IMG/VR virus record: IMGVR_UViG_3300045738_002063
Span: 1 to 29,739 of that record
DNA length: 29,739 bases
From: a virus
Reading direction: 5' to 3' (one strand)
A model generated the notes under the pieces. It saw nothing but the letters and a program-made list of their open reading frames with translations. It was not told where the DNA came from and made no database searches. The translations under genes were made by a program, and so were the position numbers. Below, in pieces: positions 2,749 to 29,739 of the stretch (the stretch's first letter is position 1; each line of letters starts with the position of its first letter).

Positions 2749-4011
2749 ATGTCATTGCTAGAAGGTGCCAAAACGTATCTGGCTGAGGCTATGAATTATG
2801 CAAACATAGACCCAGAAAGTCAGTTGCGTTTACAATACCCACAAAAAACGCTTCAAGTAGCAATACCAATGCGGCATGATGATGGCACGCTCAAAATGTA
2901 CAAAGCGTATCGTTGTCAATACGATGCAACATTGGGGCCTACCAAGGGCGGAATTAGATTTCATCCTCATGTAGATAGAGATCATGTAGAAGCCCTTGGA
3001 TTCTGGATGACTTTCAAGTGTGCTGCCGTAAAAGTTCCTTTCGGGGGAGCCAAGGGTGGTGTGGCAATTGACCCCAATACACTTTCTCATCGGGAACTTG
3101 AAAGAATCAGCAAAGCCTACATAAGTGCTTTCAAAGATTTTATAGGCCCTGATGAAGACATTCCTGCACCAGATTTGGGCACTAACGAACGTGTCATGGG
3201 ATGGATGTATTCAGAATATCGCCGTATTACAGGCGGCAATCCGAGAGCCATTATCACTGGTAAGCCTGTCGCTCTTGGTGGTATAGATGGTCGTGAATCG
3301 GCCACTGGCTATGGAGGGTTCTATGTTTTAGAAAACCTTATGGACAATCATCTCGACAAAATTAACTTGCCAGTTAAAGAAGATATCACAATTGCAATTC
3401 AGGGATTTGGGCAAGTGGGTTTTTGGTTTGCAGAAAAGTGTTTCAGGAACGGACTAAAAGTTATAGCTGCATCCAACCAATATGGTGGCGTCTATGATCC
3501 ACGAGGACTTTCACCCTATGAATGTAGAAAATGTCTTATAGAATCCGATGGGCAAGAATGGGGACAAGGAGAAAAAATAACGAATGAAGAATTGCTTGCC
3601 ATAGATTGTGATATCCTGGCTCCTGCCGCCATCGAGAGCGTTATTACTATTGATAATGCTGACAAAATAAAAGCCAGGATGGTGTTTGAACTAGCTAATG
3701 GCCCAACAACTTGTGAGTCGCATCACATCCTGGAAGATAAAGGAATCATTATCGTGCCAGATATTCTAGCAAATGCTGGTGGGGTAGTTGTGTCATTTTT
3801 TGAGTGGCTTCAAAACAAACACGGTGAAGATTGGGATAGAAACCGAGTGGACATCGGATTAAAGAAAAGAATGTGTTATGCCACAGAGAGAATGATGGCC
3901 CAACATTTTGAACATAAAATATCCATGAAAATCGCCACGTACACGCTGGCTTTGAAGAGGATTGCTAGTGCTAATGAATCTCTTGGTAACAAAGGATATT
4001 TTCAGCATTAG
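2749..4011 (+). CDS. gdhA: Glutamate dehydrogenase (Glu/Leu/Phe/Val dehydrogenase family), complete
   Basis: 420 residues, the normal length of small hexameric bacterial enzymes that interconvert glutamate with 2-oxoglutarate and ammonium. Key parts are present: TKGGIR (Lys66), catalytic Lys102 in PFGGAKGGV, PAPDLGT (Asp142), the TGKP-LGG-GR-ATGYG segment at about 170-189, the Rossmann loop GFGQVG (219-224), and the C-terminal ILANAGGVVVSFFEW block. Nothing looks truncated or mutated, so it is probably active. Cofactor preference (NAD or NADP) was not decided. It overlaps the convergent unknown gene by 4 bases. It is an unusual cargo gene for a phage and, with the aminotransferase end at 1-123, suggests control of amino-acid nitrogen during infection. 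Leucine or phenylalanine dehydrogenase is less likely at this length. Confidence 0.93.
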   Translation: MSLLEGAKTYLAEAMNYANIDPESQLRLQYPQKTLQVAIPMRHDDGTLKMYKAYRCQYDATLGPTKGGIRFHPHVDRDHVEALGFWMTFKCAAVKVPFGGAKGGVAIDPNTLSHRELERISKAYISAFKDFIGPDEDIPAPDLGTNERVMGWMYSEYRRITGGNPRAIITGKPVALGGIDGRESATGYGGFYVLENLMDNHLDKINLPVKEDITIAIQGFGQVGFWFAEKCFRNGLKVIAASNQYGGVYDPRGLSPYECRKCLIESDGQEWGQGEKITNEELLAIDCDILAPAAIESVITIDNADKIKARMVFELANGPTTCESHHILEDKGIIIVPDILANAGGVVVSFFEWLQNKHGEDWDRNRVDIGLKKRMCYATERMMAQHFEHKISMKIATYTLALKRIASANESLGNKGYFQH

Positions 4012-7559: not shown

Positions 7560-8002
7560 AGAAGTTTAATGAATGGCGAGTAATTAGAGAACAATCTCCA
7601 GAGCAGCCACCAGCGGATGTTGATGCGGCAGCAGGTCAGCAGATACAACAGGCCCCACACGTCCCACAGCAAGCTACAATCGCAACAAGAGCAATGGACG
7701 CTAAAAAAGATGTTCAAACTGCCGGGGCGAGGGGTGGTGAAGCGATATCGACAGCGGTACAGGCAATTATTGGTATCGCCCAACAAAATCCAGCAGCTTT
7801 AACTAAAATAGTTACAGCACTAGAGATGGGCGTTAAAGGTATAGAAGACCATCAAATGCAGCAACAATTGCAGGCATCTATGGACGGTCTCAAAACTGCC
7901 CTGAGACAAATTAGTGACAAGGCAACAGCAGGAGTGGGTCCGCAGCAACCGCAGCAACTTCAACCAGCCTCACCTGCGGTAGCTGGGCAAGCAACTGCCT
8001 AA
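7556..8002 (+). CDS. Tagged Gln/Ala-rich protein, possible prohead core or internal protein
   Basis: 148 residues starting MKKFNEWRVIRE. The tag is followed by I-R-E, which fits the (I/L)-x-E rule for cleavage by the T4 prohead protease. The body is Ala/Gln-rich: a disordered start, a long amphipathic helical region (about 50-125), and a Pro/Gln-rich end. Composition is like that of the tagged protein at 125-1306. Start overlaps the previous stop (ATGA). Core/scaffold role is inferred from tag, composition and coupling. Confidence 0.68.
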   Translation: MKKFNEWRVIREQSPEQPPADVDAAAGQQIQQAPHVPQQATIATRAMDAKKDVQTAGARGGEAISTAVQAIIGIAQQNPAALTKIVTALEMGVKGIEDHQMQQQLQASMDGLKTALRQISDKATAGVGPQQPQQLQPASPAVAGQATA

Positions 8003-8063
8003 ATGGTTCGACTTAGCATCTTGCCCAGGATGTGGCATAGCATAATTAATCAATGGGCATTAA

Positions 8064-10058
8064 ATGCAAGACGATAAAAAAAGAATCAAGGTTACAAATA
8101 AGCGACCTAATCTTGAAGATCGAATCAAAAAAGCCTTAGCCAAAAAGCCCACATCATCTTATCTGAACAATCAAGGCATTACTGCGGAAGTGCTTCGGAA
8201 AAATTTTGCCACAGGCGTCCCCGTTCAAACTCGTAAAAAGTTAAATGTTAAAGGTCGCAATAGGCGTAATGCCCGACCCGCAACTTCGGTAATGCATGTG
8301 CATCCAGGATCATTCGTCCCACCAACGCCCACAATGTTCCCAATGGACGAGTGGTTTCAAAACGACCAAGATGTAGATGTTTCCATAATCGTACCAATGT
8401 ACAGAAGCCATGACGTAATTCAAGATCAAATTAACTCATGGGACTTGGAAGATGATGGCCTCACCAAGGAAATAATTTACGTTAATGATGGATGTCCTAA
8501 TCAATCATATATAAAAGTTATCAAATCTTGGGAACAAAAACGCAAACAATTGAAAGCTCCTGTAGGTAAAATTGTCCTTAACGATAAAAATGGAGGATTC
8601 CCGTTTGCCTGCAACACGGGTGCCAAGTTCGCTTCCGGCAAATATCTCATATTCTTAAATGCTGATTGTGTTGTAACTCTCAATTGGATAAAACCTATGG
8701 TTGATCTAGTTGAGTCCAACAAAGAAATTGGCATCGTTGGAAATTTGCAGATCAAAGGAGATCGTGTAGATTCTGCTGGTTCTGAATGGGATTGGAATAG
8801 TAAATCATTCGTACATATTGGAAGAGGAATTTATCACGGAAAAAGAATATCCAAATCCTTCTTAATAAACGAACTACCAAGTGATTTGCAATGTCCACAA
8901 GAAAGAGAAATGGTAACCGGTTGTTGTTTTTTGATTCCTAAAGAATTATTTTACAATGTAGAAGGTTTCGATTTGCGTTATCGTATTGGTTATTGGGAAG
9001 ACGCTGACCTTTGTATGAGAGTCAGAAGCAATGGTTATAAAGTCTTCTTCACACCAGATTCCAGAATACACCACCAGGGAGGACATTCTAAGTCATGTGG
9101 ACATTACTTTATGAGGGATAACTACAGAATATTTGCTGACAAATGGCTTCACAATGGTCGAATAGATAGCATGGTTGGTGCAACAAGAAAACACATACCT
9201 ACTAATTGTAAAACCCTCAAAGACCATATCAATGGTAAAGTAGTAGGATGTGTAATTGCCTGCAATGAAGAAGAGTTTCTAGAGGTATCGGTTGACAGTA
9301 TAGCTAAGGTGGTGGACGAATGGGTATTTGTGATTGGGGGAAATAATTTCGCCTACAAAGCAGGCATGTGTGGCAAAAGCGGATTGCCCAACGATAACAC
9401 ATTAGAAATTGCAAATAAACTAGCAGATAAATATAATGGAACTGTAATCGAACCTCCAGGACGGTTATGGAAAGATAAAGTGGAAATGCGAAACGCCTAT
9501 GTCCCATTCCTGAAAACAAATGATTGGATGTTTATGTTGGATGGGGATGAAGTTTACAAAGAAGAACAACTTTACAAAGTGGCAGAGCTTACCAATAAAC
9601 ATGAAGTTCTTATTATGCAATTCTGGTTATTCTGGAATGATATGTGGACCAATGGAACTGGTACATGGGGAAACTACCCGCAAGAAAGATTGGTTCATTG
9701 GAAAGAAGGGTATGGATACAGAAAGAACAATCATCTCAACGTATCTAATGCCAGTGGGAAACCTGTTAATTCTATAGTTCCTTGCTGGAGAGGTTCAGAC
9801 AAATTATTCTATCATTATTCCTGGGTGCGGCCTGTAGAGAAAATCAGACAAAAATTGGCTTATTACAAGTATCAGTCAGGCAACACACAAGCAGAAACAT
9901 ATGTTGATAATGTTTTTCTAAAGTGGCGTAAAGATCAAAAATCGGTTCAGGGCAAAACCCACCCAATGGGCGGTGGCGGAACCGAGCCATTTCAGGGAAT
10001 TCATCCGGCTGGAATTCATCGGCTCATAGAAGATGGAATGTTCAACTTCAACGATTGA
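8064..10058 (+). CDS. Two-domain GT-A glycosyltransferase (GT2-like plus second GT2-like domain)
   Basis: 664 residues. After a basic, disordered N-terminus (1-100), the first domain (about 103-385) is a GT2-type transferase: VSIIVPMYRS, YVNDG, the metal-binding NADC (199-202), and the acceptor-side EDADLCMRVRSNGY block. A second GT-A-like domain begins near residue 390 (VVGCVIACNEEEFL) with its own D-x-D in MLDGDEVY. It probably adds two sugars in sequence from nucleotide-sugar donors in the cytoplasm. It opens the glycan island and is the only large multi-domain transferase in it. Donors and acceptor are unknown. Confidence 0.88.
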   Translation: MQDDKKRIKVTNKRPNLEDRIKKALAKKPTSSYLNNQGITAEVLRKNFATGVPVQTRKKLNVKGRNRRNARPATSVMHVHPGSFVPPTPTMFPMDEWFQNDQDVDVSIIVPMYRSHDVIQDQINSWDLEDDGLTKEIIYVNDGCPNQSYIKVIKSWEQKRKQLKAPVGKIVLNDKNGGFPFACNTGAKFASGKYLIFLNADCVVTLNWIKPMVDLVESNKEIGIVGNLQIKGDRVDSAGSEWDWNSKSFVHIGRGIYHGKRISKSFLINELPSDLQCPQEREMVTGCCFLIPKELFYNVEGFDLRYRIGYWEDADLCMRVRSNGYKVFFTPDSRIHHQGGHSKSCGHYFMRDNYRIFADKWLHNGRIDSMVGATRKHIPTNCKTLKDHINGKVVGCVIACNEEEFLEVSVDSIAKVVDEWVFVIGGNNFAYKAGMCGKSGLPNDNTLEIANKLADKYNGTVIEPPGRLWKDKVEMRNAYVPFLKTNDWMFMLDGDEVYKEEQLYKVAELTNKHEVLIMQFWLFWNDMWTNGTGTWGNYPQERLVHWKEGYGYRKNNHLNVSNASGKPVNSIVPCWRGSDKLFYHYSWVRPVEKIRQKLAYYKYQSGNTQAETYVDNVFLKWRKDQKSVQGKTHPMGGGGTEPFQGIHPAGIHRLIEDGMFNFND

Positions 10059-11642: not shown

Positions 11643-12350
11643 ATGATAGACATTGCTTTAGCCACAAAGTGGAGAGTCGATAAGTTAACACGAACTATTC
11701 AAGCATTTGTGGACAACACAGATGACCTTGGTACAATATGTGTAACATATGATTCTGATGATGCAGAAACCCACGCTGCTCGTGATGATATACTTAAAAA
11801 ATTTCCAGACAAGGTATCATTTGGCACATGTGATCCTGGAAGCTGCACTCGTGCAATGAACAAAAGCATAGAAAGAACAAAAACTAAATACATTGGTTTG
11901 TTCGCCGACGACGCAATTCTTAAAACAAAAGGATGGGACACATTATCTCTGTCCCTGTTTGATAAATATGAAGAATATCAATGTATATCCATTTCGGATA
12001 CGAGAACCCCTTCTATTACGCAAGAACTCCGGCACATTCATTATCCTTTCTTTGCAATTTTCGAAAGACAAGCATTGATGCAATTGGGAGGATATGATGA
12101 AAGATATCCTAGATCGGGAGCAGATAAACAATTAGGTGTAGACATGCTTCTAAACGATATGTTAATGATGGTTTCTGACGAAATCGTCGTCAAGCACATT
12201 AGAGACAATGACCGGTGCTTTAAGAACAATAGAGCACAGGGTCCAATAGATAACAAATTGTTTAACAAATTACTAAAAGCCAATAAAGACATGGTGATAA
12301 AAAAATATAAAGCAGTCGAAGATAAATGGGCACTATTGGTGAAGTCATAA
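11643..12350 (+). CDS. GT2-like glycosyltransferase
   Basis: 235 residues. GT-A features: an N-terminal strand IDIALATKWRVDKL, CVTYDSDD, a short helical region, and FADDAIL as the metal/nucleotide-sugar motif, then the acceptor-side LGGYDERYPRSGADKQLGVDML segment. It is shorter than usual GT2 enzymes but keeps the main blocks. AGGAG lies upstream, and the stop overlaps the next start (TAATG), so it is coupled to the dehydratase gene. Donor sugar unknown. Confidence 0.75.
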   Translation: MIDIALATKWRVDKLTRTIQAFVDNTDDLGTICVTYDSDDAETHAARDDILKKFPDKVSFGTCDPGSCTRAMNKSIERTKTKYIGLFADDAILKTKGWDTLSLSLFDKYEEYQCISISDTRTPSITQELRHIHYPFFAIFERQALMQLGGYDERYPRSGADKQLGVDMLLNDMLMMVSDEIVVKHIRDNDRCFKNNRAQGPIDNKLFNKLLKANKDMVIKKYKAVEDKWALLVKS

Positions 12351-13345
12351 TGAACATTCTATTAACTGGAATAACAGGCTTTGTAGGCAGCCACATGGCG
12401 GACTATCTCTTAAAAAATATACCTGATGTCGAAATCATTGCTAGTCGCAGATGGAGAAGCAAAGAAGATAACATTAAACATCTTATACATGATAAAAGAG
12501 TTAAATTTTTTGAGTCTGATTTGCTTGACAGAGGGAGCATTCATTCATTGGTCGAACAAAGTAAACCCGACTACGTATTTCACTTTGCTGCCCAGAGTTT
12601 CCCCGGAGCAAGTTTCAAAATTCCTATCTCTACTTTGCAAACAAACATCATAGGGACTACCAACTTGTTAGAGGAACTAGTTCAATCTAAGTTTGATCCC
12701 ATTGTGATTAGCGTGTCATCTAGTGAAGTTTATGGAATGCCCAGTGATGAAGATGACATGCCCATTAAGGAGACCAATCCGATACGTGCTGCAAATCCTT
12801 ATTCGATAAGCAAAGTGGGACATGATTTAATGTCTCAATATTTTTACAAAGCTTATGGACTTAAAGTGATTGTAACCAGAATGTTCAGTCACGAAGGCTC
12901 CCGAAGAGGCAAAGAATTTGCGATTTCTAGTTTCGCAAACCAAATCACAAAATTAGAAATGGATTACCTTGCGGACGCAGATTACGATGGGAATTTTAAG
13001 ATTTATGTAGGTAATTTGGAATCGGTACGAACATATTCACATATATCTGATGCTGTTCACGCTTATTGGTTAGCTGCTACAAAGGGAGTGATCGGAGAAG
13101 TATACAACATAGGCGGTAGTGACACATGCAAAGTAGGTGATGTTCTAGAGCTTTTGATGGATAAAAGCCACATACCAAAAAATAGATTTGAAATAGTAGT
13201 AGACCCAGATAGAATAAGGCCAACTGACATCACATTGCAAATACCGGATTGCACAAAATTCAAATGTGAAACAGGATGGGAGCCAACCAAAAACTTAGAA
13301 GACATAGTGTGTGATTTGTTGGATTATTGGAGAAACACATTGTAA
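12350..13345 (+). CDS. GDP-mannose 4,6-dehydratase-like SDR
   Basis: 331 residues from ATG at 12350 (the upstream ATG at 12326 lies inside the previous gene). NAD loop TGITGFVGSHMADYLL, Ser region SVSSSEVYG, and an intact Tyr-x-x-x-Lys in NPYSISK. The C-terminal RPTDI block followed by GWEPTKNLEDIV is typical of the Gmd/RmD group, which makes GDP-4-keto-6-deoxymannose from GDP-mannose. It is somewhat shorter than classic Gmd (about 370), so the substrate may be a related GDP sugar such as a GDP-heptose. Its last 93 bases recur at 14201-14293 in a diverged copy. Confidence 0.85.
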   Translation: MNILLTGITGFVGSHMADYLLKNIPDVEIIASRRWRSKEDNIKHLIHDKRVKFFESDLLDRGSIHSLVEQSKPDYVFHFAAQSFPGASFKIPISTLQTNIIGTTNLLEELVQSKFDPIVISVSSSEVYGMPSDEDDMPIKETNPIRAANPYSISKVGHDLMSQYFYKAYGLKVIVTRMFSHEGSRRGKEFAISSFANQITKLEMDYLADADYDGNFKIYVGNLESVRTYSHISDAVHAYWLAATKGVIGEVYNIGGSDTCKVGDVLELLMDKSHIPKNRFEIVVDPDRIRPTDITLQIPDCTKFKCETGWEPTKNLEDIVCDLLDYWRNTL

Positions 13346-13348
13346 TGG
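13256..13348 (+). repeat. Direct repeat, copy 1: 3' end of the dehydratase gene
   Basis: 93 bases covering the last 30 codons and 3 bases beyond. They match 14201-14293 with 5 mismatches and no gaps (88/93 by my alignment). Two mismatched codons change the residue (Cys to His, Asp to Asn); the others are silent, so the two copies look like alleles from different genomes rather than a fresh duplication. Confidence 0.95.
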
Positions 13349-13408
13349 TAGAAACTCCAAATGGATATGCATTTTAGACCAAATTGATATAACGAGGATA
13401 AATTTTCT

Positions 13409-14155
13409 ATGAAGTTGTTAGTGTACCAAATGGGCAAAGTTGCATCTAAGTCTTTAACCGCTTCTCTTTTGCGACACAAAGTAGATGTTATTTCATGCCA
13501 TTCTTTATTTGGGCCGCACATGATAAATGTTTCAAATTATGCTCCTGAAGAATTTTTTGATGCCTTGCAAAGAGTAAAAAAGAAGGCCAACATAGTAAGC
13601 AATAATATATTGTCAGACACCAAATTTATTACCATTGTAAGGGAACCCATATCGCAAGTTATATCTAACATTTATGAAAATTACAGAAGGTTTTGTCTAA
13701 GCACGAAAAAAGAGATCGACGTAGCTGATTTTTTTGTCAAGGCGATGAATAAAATGATCGGTGGAAATAAACCAGCAAACAAATTGGATGCTTACGTAGA
13801 ACATTTTCTACAATGGCCACTAATTTTTTTTGATTGCGAAATTAAACCGCATCTTGGCATAGATGTATATGACACATCATTCAATGGGGATAGCGTTGTT
13901 ATTGATGATAGGTTGTTAGTGTGCAAGTTTGAAAGAATCAATTATTGTTGTGAGGCAATAGCAAATTTCGCAGAAATTGATTCTTTCGATTTGATTGAGA
14001 AACAAAACATAAGACGTAACAAAAAATACGAAGAAATCAAAGCATCACTATTCCCACAACCCATAGTTGATTGGTATTGTGAATCTAAATATTGTCAGCA
14101 TTTTTACAAATCAGACATAGAGAGATTAAAACAAAAGTGGACACTAACAAATTGA
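13409..14155 (+). CDS. Sulfotransferase-like protein (cassette gene 1)
   Basis: 248 residues. The N-terminal VYQMGKVASKSL (5-16) is a PAPS 5'-phosphosulfate loop of the kind found in sulfotransferase and capsule-related families, and IVREPISQVIS (76-86) fits the 3'-phosphate-binding Arg/Ser. Such enzymes transfer sulfate from PAPS to a hydroxyl, here probably a sugar. The C-terminal half is not recognised and is Cys- and aromatic-rich. It lies on the plus strand 63 bases after the dehydratase and is followed at once by a copy of the TPP-enzyme 3' end, as if it once converged on that gene. Sulfate transfer is inferred from motifs. Confidence 0.7.
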   Translation: MKLLVYQMGKVASKSLTASLLRHKVDVISCHSLFGPHMINVSNYAPEEFFDALQRVKKKANIVSNNILSDTKFITIVREPISQVISNIYENYRRFCLSTKKEIDVADFFVKAMNKMIGGNKPANKLDAYVEHFLQWPLIFFDCEIKPHLGIDVYDTSFNGDSVVIDDRLLVCKFERINYCCEAIANFAEIDSFDLIEKQNIRRNKKYEEIKASLFPQPIVDWYCESKYCQHFYKSDIERLKQKWTLTN

Positions 14156-14293
14156 TGCAATCACTTACTGTAATTATCCCCATATTCTACCAACAATGAT
14201 AAATTCAAACATGAAACAGGATGGGAACCAACCAAAAACTTAGAAGATATAGTGTGTGATTTGTTGAATTATTGGAGAAACACATTGTAATGG
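14156..14293. pseudogene. Recombination scar: TPP-enzyme gene tail fused to dehydratase gene tail
   Basis: 14156-14200 is identical (45/45) to 14930-14974, the 3' end of the minus-strand E1-beta-like gene. It is joined directly to 14201-14293, a diverged copy of the dehydratase 3' end including its stop codon (TAA 14288-14290). Neither part has a start or an intact gene. The order dehydratase - gene 1 - TPP tail / dehydratase tail - gene 2 - TPP gene is what results if two versions of one locus, each with a different sulfotransferase in the same slot, are joined end to end. Confidence 0.9.
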
Positions 14294-14296
14294 AAG

Positions 14297-14911
14297 CTAG
14301 TATTTGTATTCAAAAAGATCAATATCCTTAGCGTATCGTTTGGCTACCTTCTTTACCAGTTCGGGAGTGTAAAACTCACGATGATGTGGATAAAGTTTAG
14401 ATGAGTTTTTTAGATGGTGAAGTTTAGCATACGGCATTCCATTTTTTTCACACACTGTCTTCCAACCTTCCTGAATATTTTCTATTCTACCAACAAAATC
14501 TACCAATAATTTATCATCTAGAGTCAGGTAATCGTGCTGATCTCGAATGTGATCCTCTTCTGAGATGCCCTCTATTGCACAAACGATATCGACGAACTCT
14601 TCAAAAGAAATTTTGTTAGATACGCCGGGTGCTATTACTTTGTTGTGAACCAACACTCTGTTTTGATAAGCCGATAAAAGCCGACGCCAAGGGTTCCTAA
14701 CAAAGGCAAATTTGAAGTAATCATCATACTCTTTGTCTAGCGTGGCTTCTTTTGTGAGATTCCCCTGGTGATCTCGATCATCGCCGTATTTACTTATGGC
14801 AAAGCCACTCTTCAACAATGTGGTTATAATAGATGTCGAAGCGACTTTGGGAATTCTGAAGTAGGTCGATTGGTACTTTTCTGAAGCAAAAATGAACAAT
14901 CTTTTTGTCAT
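14297..14911 (-). CDS. Sulfotransferase family 2-like enzyme (cassette gene 2)
   Basis: 204 residues from ATG at 14911 with AAGGAC five bases upstream. A GTG at 14938 overlapping the previous stop is a possible longer start. The PAPS loop is FRIPKVASTSI (18-28), and the 3'-phosphate motif is FVRNPWRRLLSAYQNR (70-85), both textbook carbohydrate sulfotransferase signatures; RDQHDYL and DFVGRIENI also fit the family. It probably sulfates a sugar of the island's glycan. It shares almost no sequence with gene 1 on the other side of the scar, so it is an alternative enzyme rather than a duplicate. Confidence 0.85.
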   Translation of the reverse strand: MTKRLFIFASEKYQSTYFRIPKVASTSIITTLLKSGFAISKYGDDRDHQGNLTKEATLDKEYDDYFKFAFVRNPWRRLLSAYQNRVLVHNKVIAPGVSNKISFEEFVDIVCAIEGISEEDHIRDQHDYLTLDDKLLVDFVGRIENIQEGWKTVCEKNGMPYAKLHHLKNSSKLYPHHREFYTPELVKKVAKRYAKDIDLFEYKY

Positions 14912-14929
14912 AATGTCCTTGCCCTTATC

Positions 14930-14974
14930 TGCAATCACTTACTGTAATTATCCCCATATTCTACCAACAATGAT
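14930..14974. repeat. Direct repeat: 3' end of the E1-beta-like gene (parent copy)
   Basis: 45 bases identical to 14156-14200. They include the stop codon of the E1-beta-like gene and its last 12-13 codons. After 14974 the parent gene continues, whereas the other copy switches to dehydratase sequence. Confidence 0.95.
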
Positions 14975-15471
14975 GGCCTACCTTCTTTTGCCCGATCATA
15001 AGCTTCAGAATAAGCAGGAAAGACTTCTTCTTTATCTTCTAAAAGATACACCTTGGTGTTGGTTAACATTTTTTCGTAGGCTTCTGTATGATTTTGGGTA
15101 TGTTGCACACCACCATCCAATGGCTCTAATGAGCCAACCGCAGTTCTTATGATTACACCACCATTCATTTTCCCTTTGGTCATGACTTCTAGTTTATCTA
15201 AATGATTCACCAATTGATTAGTAGCTAGAATAAGAAAATCCCATCGAGGATAACAGGTTACCGGTATAAACCCCTTCATGGACAAACCAATAGACATTCC
15301 CATTTGGGTTTCTTCAAACACAGGAAGTTCGATTCTTTTTGATTTGTCTATAGTTTTAAGCGTGCCGTATATAGAATTGCCATCATAGACCACTGATTGA
15401 CCTAGAAATAACACTTTGTCATCCTCTGCCAAGAATTCCATAGCTCTAATTAATTCATCTTTGTACGTCAT
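14935..15471 (-). CDS. Short E1-beta / transketolase-pyrimidine-domain TPP-enzyme subunit
   Basis: 178 residues from ATG at 15471, which overlaps the alpha-subunit stop (TAATG). It matches the pyrimidine-binding domain of pyruvate/2-oxo-acid dehydrogenase E1-beta: a Glu pair in VFEETQMGMSIGLSMKG (51-67; Glu53 or Glu54 would activate TPP), then PRWDFLILATNQLVNHLDK. Full E1-beta proteins have about 325 residues. Here the C-terminal transketolase domain is absent and the gene ends normally, so the enzyme is a minimal two-domain type. With the alpha subunit it may decarboxylate a 2-oxo acid and pass the acyl unit to a sugar. The reaction is not known. Confidence 0.78.
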   Translation of the reverse strand: MTYKDELIRAMEFLAEDDKVLFLGQSVVYDGNSIYGTLKTIDKSKRIELPVFEETQMGMSIGLSMKGFIPVTCYPRWDFLILATNQLVNHLDKLEVMTKGKMNGGVIIRTAVGSLEPLDGGVQHTQNHTEAYEKMLTNTKVYLLEDKEEVFPAYSEAYDRAKEGRPSLLVEYGDNYSK

Positions 15472-16112
15472 TAGAATGATACCCAAATACCTATACCATG
15501 ATGAGGGTATAGTCTTTCATATTGATAGTAAATTACGTCATCGGTCTCTTCCCATTTGGTCTTACTTCCCCAGGTTTCATCTGTGGGAGTATTAGTGCTC
15601 ATATTATTGTCTTCAACAACAAATTGTATGGGCAACTCAAATTTTTTTGAGTATTTGTATGCCTCATGGAATCCTCCTGTTTCTGCCGTCATATCTCCGA
15701 CAAAGACCCATACTCTTTGATTGTTCGGATTTCCTTCTAGCTTGAGAGCTTTTGCTACACCTAAAGCAATAGGAATAATACCGCCCACAATGGAAGATGT
15801 ATAAAAATTTGGGTCTCTATAAGAGATACTCATACTTTTTCGCAAATCAACAATATCACTCCATAATACATCTTCAGGAACACCATGCAATAATGCATGA
15901 TAATGATTTCTCCAAGAGGAAAATACCCAATCTTCATGTCCTACATATTGAAATATTTCTATTAAGTCTTCCTCATTATTGCCAGATAGATGTACTGGAC
16001 CACGAATTATTGACTTTTCATAGGCATCTCTTATAGATTTCTCAAACTCTATTAAATCATCAACTTTTTTGGTGATTTTCCTTATGGGCTTTAAATATGA
16101 TGGGATTTTCAT
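15471..16112 (-). CDS. Short E1-alpha-like TPP-binding subunit
   Basis: 213 residues; usual E1-alpha proteins have about 320-360. The TPP/Mg site is seen as VGDMTAETGGFHEAY (138-152) followed by VVEDNN (165-170), the GD-x(n)-N pattern, with Met in place of the usual Gly after GD. The upstream SWRNHYHALLHG segment resembles the E1-alpha RxHxxxL-G region. The C-terminus stops soon after the TPP site. Coupled to the beta subunit by TAATG. The 38 bases to the divergent SDR gene must hold both promoters, if there are any. Lipoamide partners (E2, E3) are not in the window, so a complete dehydrogenase complex is unlikely. Confidence 0.78.
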   Translation of the reverse strand: MKIPSYLKPIRKITKKVDDLIEFEKSIRDAYEKSIIRGPVHLSGNNEEDLIEIFQYVGHEDWVFSSWRNHYHALLHGVPEDVLWSDIVDLRKSMSISYRDPNFYTSSIVGGIIPIALGVAKALKLEGNPNNQRVWVFVGDMTAETGGFHEAYKYSKKFELPIQFVVEDNNMSTNTPTDETWGSKTKWEETDDVIYYQYERLYPHHGIGIWVSF

Positions 16113-16150: not shown

Positions 16151-17104
16151 ATGTTTAAAGACAAAACAGTGTTCATTCCAGGCGGTCGAACTGGTTTTTT
16201 AGGTACTAATTTTGTAAACAAACTGTTGCCCCAAGGGGCAACAGTTTTAGCTCACTCTTTTTCCAAAAAACCAGGATTCTTAAAGCCTTCCCCTAATTTG
16301 CTAGAAATGACTGGCCCTCTCACTCCAGATAATCTTCCTAAAGATTTAGACATTGACTATGTGATTCACTGCGCCGCTTATACGGCAGGTGCCCATGAAA
16401 TGACCAATAATCCTGTTGCTTTTGTCAATGAAAATACTTTTTCAAATTCGCATTTACTGGATTGGGCTGCTTTACGTGGTGTTAAAAAGTTCATATTCAT
16501 TAGTAGTTCTGCTATATATCCAAATGCTGATTACCCTTTAAAAGAGGAAGAAGGATTTATTGACGATCCTCCTGGTAATTATTTCGGTGTTGGGTGGATG
16601 AAAAGATACACTGAGAAATTAGCTAATTTCTATCATAAATGCTATGGAATGGAAGTGCTCATTATTCGCCCGTCTAATATTTATGGCCCTTTTTCTAATT
16701 TCGATTTACAACATTCGCATGTCTTGCCTGCTTTAATACGCAAATTTGATGAAAATCACAATCCTTTAGAGGTTTGGGGTTCCCCAGATGTTGTCAGGGA
16801 TTTTATCTATGTAGATGATTTTGTAGAAGGAGTGATATCTGCTTTCAATTTCTTTTCTGGCTTTGATGTTTTCAACATTGCCTCTGGAAAAACAATAACT
16901 ATTGGGGAATCCGTAGATTTGATTTCAGAACTTACCGATTACAAAGGAGAGATAATTTTTAATTCTTCAAAGCCAACTACTATTCACACCAGAGAAATAG
17001 ATATATCAAAAGCTAAATCATTATTGGGATTTGATACATTTACTTCTTTCAAAGATGGTCTAGAAAAAACAATAAATTGGTATAAAAGCAATGTTAACCA
17101 CTAA
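16151..17104 (+). CDS. SDR sugar-nucleotide epimerase/reductase (GDP-fucose-synthase-like), second copy type
   Basis: 317 residues after AAGAGGAATT (ribosome site). Cofactor loop GGRTGFLG (11-18), catalytic Ser region ISSSAIYP (117-124), and VGWMKRYTEK with Lys151. The position four before the Lys is Val; the nearest Tyr is seven before. RPSNIYGPFSNF and VRDFIYVDDFVEG are the substrate-side blocks. It is related to the SDR at 10635 but clearly not a recent duplicate. It overlaps the transketolase gene by 14 bases, so it likely acts in the same pathway, perhaps reducing or epimerising the sugar made by that enzyme. Confidence 0.83.
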   Translation: MFKDKTVFIPGGRTGFLGTNFVNKLLPQGATVLAHSFSKKPGFLKPSPNLLEMTGPLTPDNLPKDLDIDYVIHCAAYTAGAHEMTNNPVAFVNENTFSNSHLLDWAALRGVKKFIFISSSAIYPNADYPLKEEEGFIDDPPGNYFGVGWMKRYTEKLANFYHKCYGMEVLIIRPSNIYGPFSNFDLQHSHVLPALIRKFDENHNPLEVWGSPDVVRDFIYVDDFVEGVISAFNFFSGFDVFNIASGKTITIGESVDLISELTDYKGEIIFNSSKPTTIHTREIDISKAKSLLGFDTFTSFKDGLEKTINWYKSNVNH

Positions 17105-17903
17105 AGAGCTAAAAGACAAAGTAAAACAGACTAAACTTCGTACCTTTGATATGGTTATGAATGCTGGCAGAGGGCATCTAGGAGGTTCATTTTCATCTGT
17201 GGAAGTATTGGTATCATTGTATTATGGTGGCATTTTAAAATTTGATCCAGATAACCCGAAATGGGAGAAAAGAGATAGGATAATATTGAGTAAAGGGCAT
17301 GCTAACAATTGCCTTTGTGTTATCTTATCTGATTTGGGATATTTTGAAGAAAAAGAACTCGATTTATACTGTCAAAATGGAGGCACACTAGGAGGGCATA
17401 GTGATGATGTAGTTCCTGGCGTTGAAGCTGTCACAGGTTCTTTAGGGCATGGTCTTGGATTGGCTGCTGGTATGGCGTTGGGTCTCAAATTAGACGGCAG
17501 CAACAATCGCATTTTCTGCATTATAGGTGATGGGGAGAGTCAAGAGGGATCAATTTGGGAAGCGGCCATGTTTGCAGCCCATCATGAACTTCATAATTTA
17601 ACTGTTGTGCTAGATAGAAATCAATTAGGCAGTGAAGATTTTACAAAAGACACATGTAAACTAGAGCCACTGGTTGACAAATGGAAAAGTTTTGGATGGA
17701 TGGTTTGCGAAATGAATGGCCATGATATTGCTGAGTGTTTGCACACTCTTTCAACAGATTTTCAAGGCAATAATCCAGGTATAATTATTTCAAAAACAAT
17801 CAAAGGAAATGGAATGCCTTCTTTGGAAAATACTCCTAAGTCACACCACACGCTTCCCAAAGGAACTCAAATTGATGCAACGAGGAAAAATCTTCTATCA
17901 TGA
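17091..17903 (+). CDS. Transketolase N-terminal subunit (TPP-binding)
   Basis: 270 residues, the usual length of split N-terminal transketolases. GRGHLGGSFS (26-35), SKGHANN (67-73), GSLGHGLG, and the TPP/Mg motif GDGESQEGSIWEA (146-158) with Asn177 completing it. With the next gene it forms an alpha2-beta2 enzyme that moves a two-carbon ketol unit between sugars. Split transketolases occur in archaea and in surface-glycan or secondary-metabolism clusters. Here it is surrounded by sugar-nucleotide genes, so it may build a heptulose precursor or a branched sugar rather than serve the pentose phosphate pathway. Gene identity strong, reaction inferred. Confidence 0.92.
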   Translation: MLTTKELKDKVKQTKLRTFDMVMNAGRGHLGGSFSSVEVLVSLYYGGILKFDPDNPKWEKRDRIILSKGHANNCLCVILSDLGYFEEKELDLYCQNGGTLGGHSDDVVPGVEAVTGSLGHGLGLAAGMALGLKLDGSNNRIFCIIGDGESQEGSIWEAAMFAAHHELHNLTVVLDRNQLGSEDFTKDTCKLEPLVDKWKSFGWMVCEMNGHDIAECLHTLSTDFQGNNPGIIISKTIKGNGMPSLENTPKSHHTLPKGTQIDATRKNLLS

Positions 17904-22783: not shown

Positions 22784-23566
22784 TTATGCCCACGCAATCC
22801 ACTCCTTCCAATCATCCAAATTGTTTTTAATGGTATCTGGATATGTTTCATCAATGGGAACAATTTTCATATCTCGATTTCTAAATAGGTCTTTTTTATT
22901 CTCAATCAATTCATTAATTATATCTACGTTGAAACGATTCCCCAAGTAGTCTTTTTTACTAGCATGAACAAAACTATTCAACTTGTATTGAATTTCTTCT
23001 GGAGAAGCAAGATAGCTAAAATGTTTGCCCAGAGTTTTAACAACAATCGGTTTTCTTCCAGATTCATTTATTTTATGGCGAAGTCGTGTTAAAGTTTTGC
23101 AAGATTGTTTGAAAAACTTACCAGTCAAACCGATAGAACTAGTCCAGTTTTCTCCCAGTAGCATGTTGATTTTGTAGTAGTAAATTGGCATATTAAATCT
23201 AATATATTCCAATTCTCTTATCTTGTCTATCAATCTTTCCATTTCTTTAGCAGGCAACAACTCATCCAAGTCGCAAGAAATAATTATATCATCATCGCTT
23301 ATGTCCCTGCCAATCATTGCTCTGTTACGTTGATGGCCTTCATTGTGAAAAGAATTATTGGTGAACTCGTTAGCCTTTACTAACACTTTTTCTAACTTGG
23401 GATGGTTATACTTATCATTATTGAACAATAATACTTTTTTGTTTTTATTTGTATGAGTTCTTTCGGCCTCTACAATAATCATTTTGTCTACGTAATCCAT
23501 CTGTTCTGCTATCTTTAAGTCTAACAGTTTGAATTCGTTAAAAAACATCGAGCAACTGTATATCAT
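22784..23566 (-). CDS. GT17-like glycosyltransferase
   Basis: 260 residues with the hallmarks of family GT17 (beta-1,4-GlcNAc-transferase-like): the opening MIYSCSMFFNEFKLLDLKI, VDKMIIVEAERTH (26-38), a QRNRAM segment, D-L-D-E (99-102) as nucleotide-sugar metal motif, and KHFSYL further on. It probably transfers a GlcNAc-like sugar in the cytoplasm. Its ATG overlaps the upstream sulfotransferase stop (TAATG), so the two are coupled. Confidence 0.85.
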   Translation of the reverse strand: MIYSCSMFFNEFKLLDLKIAEQMDYVDKMIIVEAERTHTNKNKKVLLFNNDKYNHPKLEKVLVKANEFTNNSFHNEGHQRNRAMIGRDISDDDIIISCDLDELLPAKEMERLIDKIRELEYIRFNMPIYYYKINMLLGENWTSSIGLTGKFFKQSCKTLTRLRHKINESGRKPIVVKTLGKHFSYLASPEEIQYKLNSFVHASKKDYLGNRFNVDIINELIENKKDLFRNRDMKIVPIDETYPDTIKNNLDDWKEWIAWA

Positions 23567-24213
23567 TAGCGATACTCATAACCTGCCATTTTCATAGCGT
23601 TTTTATCTAATTGATTATTGATACGTTGAATTTGTTTCTTGTTGAATTTCCCAAAATTTGGTTTGAACTTTTTTTGGGAATCTTTGCGAGCGGGGTTGAT
23701 TCTTGTTTCAATCACCAACAATTTGTCTTTTTCTTCAATTCCAAAATTTATTTTGAGTCGAGTAAGCACTTGTACTTGATTATCAATCATATCCTCAAAC
23801 TTTACTTGCTGAAGAATGGTCTGGTCGTTATACATTTTTAGCCAATGTACGGTAAGTTCGTTATAAACATCGATAGGGAGACCTGAAGATTTAACACGAT
23901 TTTCATCTTTGTAGTGCCAACATGGATAGTCTAAAAATTTATCGAATGGTTTCTTATTGCCCCTTGTGCGTGATTCAAAGTCATAAAGAGAATGCAGCCA
24001 ATCATAAGGATTTTTAGTGCATATAACAAATTTCAAATCATCAATACGTATCTTCTTTTTTACATCCGTGATAGATCGACCTTTTAAACTATTTCTGCCA
24101 TGCTTCCAACAAGGATAATTATTCAATAACAAGCATTTTAGATTACTGCAAATACAGAATTCTGTTACATTCGTACACGTTCTGGGTAAGCCAAATATTT
24201 TTATTGCCTTCAA
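23566..24213 (-). CDS. Sulfotransferase-like protein (third in the window)
   Basis: 215 residues from TTG at 24213, chosen because GAGGAGG lies five bases upstream. P-loop-like KIFGLPRTCTN (5-15) for PAPS and VICTKNPYDWLHSLY (63-77) with a Ser for the 3'-phosphate. The fold pattern fits small phage and bacterial sulfotransferases; sequence is far from the two at 13.4-14.9 kb. It is followed by GT17 in the same unit and preceded by a broken pyruvyltransferase. Sulfation of a sugar is the likely job. Confidence 0.72.
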   Translation of the reverse strand: MKAIKIFGLPRTCTNVTEFCICSNLKCLLLNNYPCWKHGRNSLKGRSITDVKKKIRIDDLKFVICTKNPYDWLHSLYDFESRTRGNKKPFDKFLDYPCWHYKDENRVKSSGLPIDVYNELTVHWLKMYNDQTILQQVKFEDMIDNQVQVLTRLKINFGIEEKDKLLVIETRINPARKDSQKKFKPNFGKFNKKQIQRINNQLDKNAMKMAGYEYR

Positions 24214-29345: not shown

Positions 29346-29739
29346 ATGGCCAGAGACTTATTTATTGGAGGCGTTCAGTACACCGAGAGCGGTGAACAAG
29401 AATATTTCATTGAAGGTGTACAGGCGAATGAAGCCGGTCAAGTCAATCAAGAAGTTGAACTCACTGGCATAGCTTCTGAGGAGGCATTCGGTACATCTAA
29501 GTTAAACCAAGAAGTTAAACCAACTGGCATAGCTTCTGCCGAAGCATTCGGCACATCTAAGTTAAACCAAGAAGTTAAACCAACTGGCATAGCTTCTGCC
29601 GAAGCATTCGGCACATCTAAGTTAAACCAAGAAGTTAAACCAACTGGCATAGCTTCTGCCGAAGCATTCGGCACATCTAAGTTAAACCAAGAAGTTAAAC
29701 CAACTGGCATAGCTTCTGCCGAAGCATTCGGCACATCTA
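29346..29739 (+). CDS. Repeat-containing virion protein, 5' part (runs off the window)
   Basis: Starts MARDLFIGGVQYTESGEQEYFIEGVQ after a GGGG ribosome site. It then enters a 20-residue repeat with the core G-I-A-S-A-E-A-F-G-T-S-K-L-N-Q-E-V-K-P-T. The SAEAFG pentapeptide-like motif is common in phage tail and surface proteins, where it forms extended beta-repeats. No stop before the window end, so length and C-terminus are unknown. Follows the fibre-like gene by 12 bases. Confidence 0.75.
   Translation, partial: MARDLFIGGVQYTESGEQEYFIEGVQANEAGQVNQEVELTGIASEEAFGTSKLNQEVKPTGIASAEAFGTSKLNQEVKPTGIASAEAFGTSKLNQEVKPTGIASAEAFGTSKLNQEVKPTGIASAEAFGTS
29450..29739. repeat. 60-bp tandem repeat, about 4.8 copies, open at the window end
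   Basis: Period exactly 60 bases, so the reading frame is kept. From 29493 to the end the copies are identical; the first copy (about 29450-29492) differs in a few positions (GAGGAG in place of GCCGAA, GGTACA in place of GGCACA). Lack of silent changes between later copies means recent expansion by slippage or recombination. True copy number may be larger, since assemblies often break or collapse here. Confidence 0.97.

Follow-up and report, generated by a model that had tools for sequence, protein, structure and literature searches.

The glycan gene cluster of an uncultured phage holds two sulfotransferase-like genes of opposite orientation, STA and STB, separated by redundant copies of the 3' ends of two neighbouring genes. 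We consider it probable that this locus is a phage merodiploid, which arose when the genomes of two related co-infecting phages underwent a single unequal crossover of the near-blunt (illegitimate) type. The DNA analysed (hereafter the window) comprises 29,739 bases and represents one metagenomic virus contig, taken as an entire IMG/VR record; the features discussed are collected in Table 1. The order along the contig is D(+), STA(+), TPPb tail, D tail, STB(-), TPPb(-), TPPa(-), as a preliminary description of the sequence had given it, and the D, TPPb and both sulfotransferase ORFs are all intact. The most likely start of STB is the ATG at 14911, while the mechanical ORF reaches 14938 via a GTG. 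Judging from their domain matches, an E1-type TPP enzyme is split between TPPb and TPPa; TPPb also matches the PDH E1 beta subfamily model (1e-13, under that model's cut-off).

Table 1. Features of the double sulfotransferase locus and of the related transketolase gene (coordinates are those of the window).
Feature	Position	Strand	Description
D	12350-13345	+	Intact sugar-nucleotide 4,6-dehydratase-like gene, GDP_Man_Dehyd; Pfam PF16363 6e-69
D 3' tail, reference copy	13256-13351	+	Reference copy of 96-nt direct repeat
Transketolase-N (TkN) tail copy	13380-13410	+	Last codons; matches 17868-17898; directly upstream of STA
STA	13409-14155	+	Sulfotransferase-like, Pfam NKWYS (PF10364) 2e-8; KVASKS and REP-x6-S motifs
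TPPb 3' tail copy	14156-14200	+	12 codons, stop, 5 nt; 45/45 vs 14930-14974
D 3' tail copy	14201-14296	+	29 codons, stop, 6 nt; 90/96 vs 13256-13351
STB	14297-14911	-	Sulfotransferase, Pfam Sulfotransfer_2 (PF03567) 1e-23, residues 8-203
TPPb 3' tail, reference copy	14930-14974	+	Reference copy of 45-nt direct repeat
TPPb	14935-15471	-	Intact transketolase/E1-beta pyrimidine-binding subunit; PF02779 1e-6
TPPa	15471-16112	-	E1-alpha-like TPP-binding subunit; PF00676 8.5e-15
TkN gene	17091-17903		3' end resembles stretch before STA
TkN 3' end, source-like copy	17868-17898	+	Within gene 17091-17903

Further glycan genes surround the locus, namely epimerases, a dTDP-sugar isomerase, glycosyltransferases and a transketolase in two pieces, and the neighbours also include an aldo-keto reductase, a weak methyltransferase match and a weak third sulfotransferase-like gene (23566-24213, Sulfotransfer_1 7e-4, below cut-off). 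Elsewhere in the window we noted a Glu/Leu/Phe/Val dehydrogenase gene (2749-4011, 2e-58 and 1e-53), which is odd cargo for a virus contig, and a 60-bp tandem repeat (29445-29739, self-matches 85-97%) that reaches past the right contig end, so the assembly probably stops there.

Repeat searches of the window returned just two families, the D tail and the TPPb tail, both of which had already been described, with E-values of 4e-36 and 1e-16, respectively, in a BLAST comparison within the window. Indeed, the mechanical search recovered the perfect copy of the E1-beta-like (TPPb) 3' end exactly as first reported, and the copy of the dehydratase 3' end, first reported as 14201-14293 (88/93, two amino-acid changes), proved to extend 3 nt further, to 14296. 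The borders of the two copies are sharp: the TPPb-tail copy starts at base 1 past the STA stop codon, the D-tail copy stops at the final base preceding the STB stop codon, and at 14200/14201 the two abut without visible overlap. As a point against the proposed crossover, no microhomology to the reference D copy (D1) is visible at this junction, the comparison resting on D1, whose upstream sequence, unlike that of the second copy (D2), is present in the window. The pattern is far beyond chance, and it is what joining D-A-TPP and D-B-TPP versions of the locus end to end would produce, in line with the preliminary description. An inversion scar is ruled out, as the tail copies are direct and not inverted repeats.

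Under the crossover that we favour, parent 1 would have carried dehydratase-A(+)-TPPb(-) and parent 2, in the same cell, dehydratase-B(-)-TPPb(-). In parent 1 the break would have fallen 45 nt into the TPPb 3' end, in parent 2 approximately 90 nt ahead of the dehydratase stop codon, and joining of these ends would yield a recombinant that keeps both sulfotransferases, with the redundant gene tails left between the cassettes. Because the offset of such a crossover overlaps rather than deletes, the genes would stay whole and two redundant tails would remain. The tandem tail copies with their exact gene-end borders argue for this origin, as do the intact flanking and sulfotransferase genes; the order of the copies assigns each end to a parent, and the 45-nt and 96-nt repeats would mark stretches in which the postulated parents were alike. 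Also in its favour are the codon differences between the D copies, a third tail copy in front of STA and the restriction of such copies to the window, all described below.

The same joint could have been made during library preparation or assembly, if co-existing D-A-TPP and D-B-TPP strains had been stitched together at 14200/14201. We have a single metagenomic virus contig, an exact search of IMG/VR for the junction gave no match in any second contig, and the two D copies do resemble strain alleles. However, no k-mer is shared at the joint, hence a de Bruijn assembler would have had no overlap to follow, and the first difference between D1 and D2 lies 9 nt inside the D copy, hence there is no clean graph branch on the D side. 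Moreover, a third tail, that of TkN in front of STA (see below), records a rearrangement at the same place that is not derivable from the 14200/14201 join. A chimera thus appears unlikely to us.

Four codons separate the two D copies, TGT>CAT (C>H) at codon 4 of the copy, GAG>GAA, GAC>GAT and GAT>AAT (D>N), of which two are silent changes and the first is a two-base change; the N of the 'NYW' in the D-tail copy is also present in relatives. A single crossover does not predict that the TPPb-tail copies are identical whereas the D copies are 5% apart, but the difference (0/45 against 5/93) is non-significant, and the two pairs are not distinguishable in divergence (Fisher p 0.17). Equal divergence of the two pairs, which this test allows, would fit an internal tandem duplication of the segment from D tail through sulfotransferase to TPPb tail, after which recombination or divergence would have replaced one of the sulfotransferases; the result would be the same double-tail joint. 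This route requires two events, and divergence offers no explanation for an STA and STB that point in opposite directions and are not similar by BLAST; nor are silent and two-base changes within 29 codons what one would expect of decay after a recent duplication. We consider it improbable. The claim that the differences point to a donor strain rather than to simple duplication was only partly borne out: the comparison of divergences does not separate the two, and it is the two-base and silent changes that incline us to derive the D copy from an allele of a functional gene.

The TkN tail is an addition to the preliminary description, which had two tail copies. The match of approximately 31 nt is in frame, reading QIDITRINFL-stop before STA and QIDATRKNLLS-stop at the end of the TkN gene, and the stop codon of the copy overlaps the STA start as ATGA. 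Its ungapped score of 42 stands against a maximum of 32 among 1000 dinucleotide shuffles (none reached 40) and a score of 29 for the runner-up tail match among the 33 window genes tested. The copy includes a Shine-Dalgarno-like GAGGA, but a mere shared ribosome-binding site is an unlikely explanation, as ACGAGGA precedes no other listed gene and the match spans 31 nt. From sequence comparison, either of the two TkN-tail copies may be the original. The match suggests that STA probably once sat directly behind a transketolase-N gene. STA would then have come with the flank of another gene and have moved at least once before, so the crossover site would already have been rearranged earlier, and the history of the locus exceeds one clean join.

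Tails of genes from the same island on both sides of STA would also be expected if STA had been inserted stepwise behind D in a D-B-TPP phage, bringing the tails of its earlier neighbours (TkN left, TPPb right), and if the D tail had been doubled where STA entered; TkN does adjoin TPPb in some relatives, the order in loci L061-L063 being TPPa-TPPb-TkN-TkC. Yet the TPPb tail requires a separate source and the scheme more events, and no transposase, integrase or homing-endonuclease match was found among the genes scanned. We hold this route to be very unlikely. Nor does a transposable or homing cassette find support: Pfam gave no recombinase or endonuclease match among the genes scanned, and the repeats are tails of neighbour genes, not inverted ends.

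The two genes retained at the locus had been called unrelated sulfotransferases. That both are sulfotransferases is likely, given their Pfam matches, which exceed the curated model cut-offs in both cases, and their PAPS-binding motifs. In STA the two motifs occur in order (KVASKS at residue 10, VREP-x6-S downstream), an arrangement found in 2 of 200,000 shuffles of STA, and the equivalents in STB are KVASTS and VRNP-x6-S; the Sulfotransfer_2 profile covers the whole STB protein. 'Unrelated', however, is too strong a word. BLASTP of STA against STB detected no significant similarity, but the PAPS motifs common to both make it probable that the two share an enzyme class; their presumed target would be a surface glycan. 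STB is 27-32% identical in amino acids to phage proteins, two of which are annotated as sulfotransferases, whereas STA had no match among phage proteins. Neither protein had relatives in IMG/VR, and STA had none in GTDB contigs either. When 19 related records were scanned for the PF03567 and PF10364 families the outcome was negative, but it carries no weight, as the control genomes also gave no match. A PDB sequence search with STA gave no match, and there is no solved homologue by sequence for STA or STB; single-sequence AlphaFold models were poor (mean pLDDT 32 for STA and 34 for STB).

We also looked for the single-cassette loci D-A-TPP and D-B-TPP that would represent the parents. Neither was present in IMG/VR, GTDB contigs or INPHARED, and near relatives were absent altogether, amino-acid identity to the nearest relative being 65% for D (IMG/VR) and 63% for TPPb; this counts against the proposed crossover. 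In the related IMG/VR loci having both D and TPP genes, these genes are all co-directional, in orders that include TPPa-TPPb-epimerase-D and D-TPPa-TPPb, and a convergent D-X-TPPb pair with a gene between was found in none of the related loci. The TPPa-TPPb pair of the window (14935-16112) is thus inverted relative to every related locus in which it occurs along with D. A defined swap slot with a conserved gene on either side did not find support in these comparisons. Since no close relatives were found, a slot at short range is unsupported rather than refuted, and since no parent-like sequence was found in IMG/VR, GTDB contigs or INPHARED, it would be deduced from this single locus.

The repeat spacings predict two precise deletions. 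Recombination between the 96-nt repeats would remove 945 nt and give D-B-TPP, and recombination between the 45-nt repeats would remove 774 nt and give D-A-TPP. Either single allele should therefore segregate from the double locus. A more far-reaching proposal, that the site is a recombination hotspot where gene 3' ends serve as splice points for cassettes, and that phages of this population maintain an unstable double locus from which either of two sulfation alleles segregates, reversibly altering the sulfation of a surface glycan, strikes us as highly doubtful. A regulatory role for the scar (terminator, promoter or RNA fold) was rejected, as promoter and terminator counts are at chance level and the RNA fold has a z of +1.27; the scar contains no terminator, and its only promoter-like matches are 9-of-12 and on the minus strand.

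Tailed phages are mosaics shaped by illegitimate recombination, in which imprecise joints at gene borders leave the genes whole and short redundant fragments behind. The joint described here likewise keeps genes whole and leaves a fragment of each postulated parental flank, but most such joints lose their fragments, whereas here two tails of known origin stand in tandem and both alternative genes are kept. The mechanism is ordinary phage mosaicism, with a footprint that is unusually well preserved. Marine T4-like phages have hyperplastic or LPS-gene regions, in which clusters of LPS and glycan genes vary between phages, and illegitimate recombination during concatemer formation, together with mispackaging, was proposed there for gain and loss (PMC3037559; PMC4503421). 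Our locus also lies in a glycan gene cluster; those papers, however, deal with genes gained and lost, not with a merodiploid joint that keeps the tails of both parents, and the present phage need not belong to that family. In the promoter-early stem-loop (PeSL) cassettes of T4-like phages, as they are presented in PMC4503421 (citing Arbiol 2010 and Comeau 2014), genes could be shuffled by recombination at short repeats that separate the cassettes. Compared with the PeSL cassettes as outlined there, our locus has no promoter, terminator or stem-loop above chance at its repeats, which are gene tails. If the merodiploid is real, the way in which a phage gains glycan-modifying genes can be read from it unusually well, as from a fossil, with a joint that names both parents; reads could reveal segregation of the alleles, as two exact deletion products are predicted; and an offset crossover can retain both alleles in place of exchanging them.

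Lastly, we surveyed the window together with 143 related loci, 144 non-redundant sequences in all (1.53 Mb, 1783 ORFs). The 3' tail of every ORF of 100 aa or more was searched against its own locus, with gene heads as the control. The window alone yielded tail copies outside ORFs, namely the two in the scar and the TkN tail, which just overlaps the STA start; being confined to one of 144 sequences, such copies are no generic property of loci of this kind. The head control gave one case, a 74-nt gene-head fragment ahead of a full copy of the same head (L101:9645-9926), which resembles an insertion or deletion remnant. In another related locus (L219:7648-9180), missed by the survey filters, the 3' tail of one gene occurs twice (41/45, same frame), once on each side of the next gene downstream (7719-9122); this 45-nt repeat is AT-rich and weaker than those of the window, and is a possible second tail duplication.
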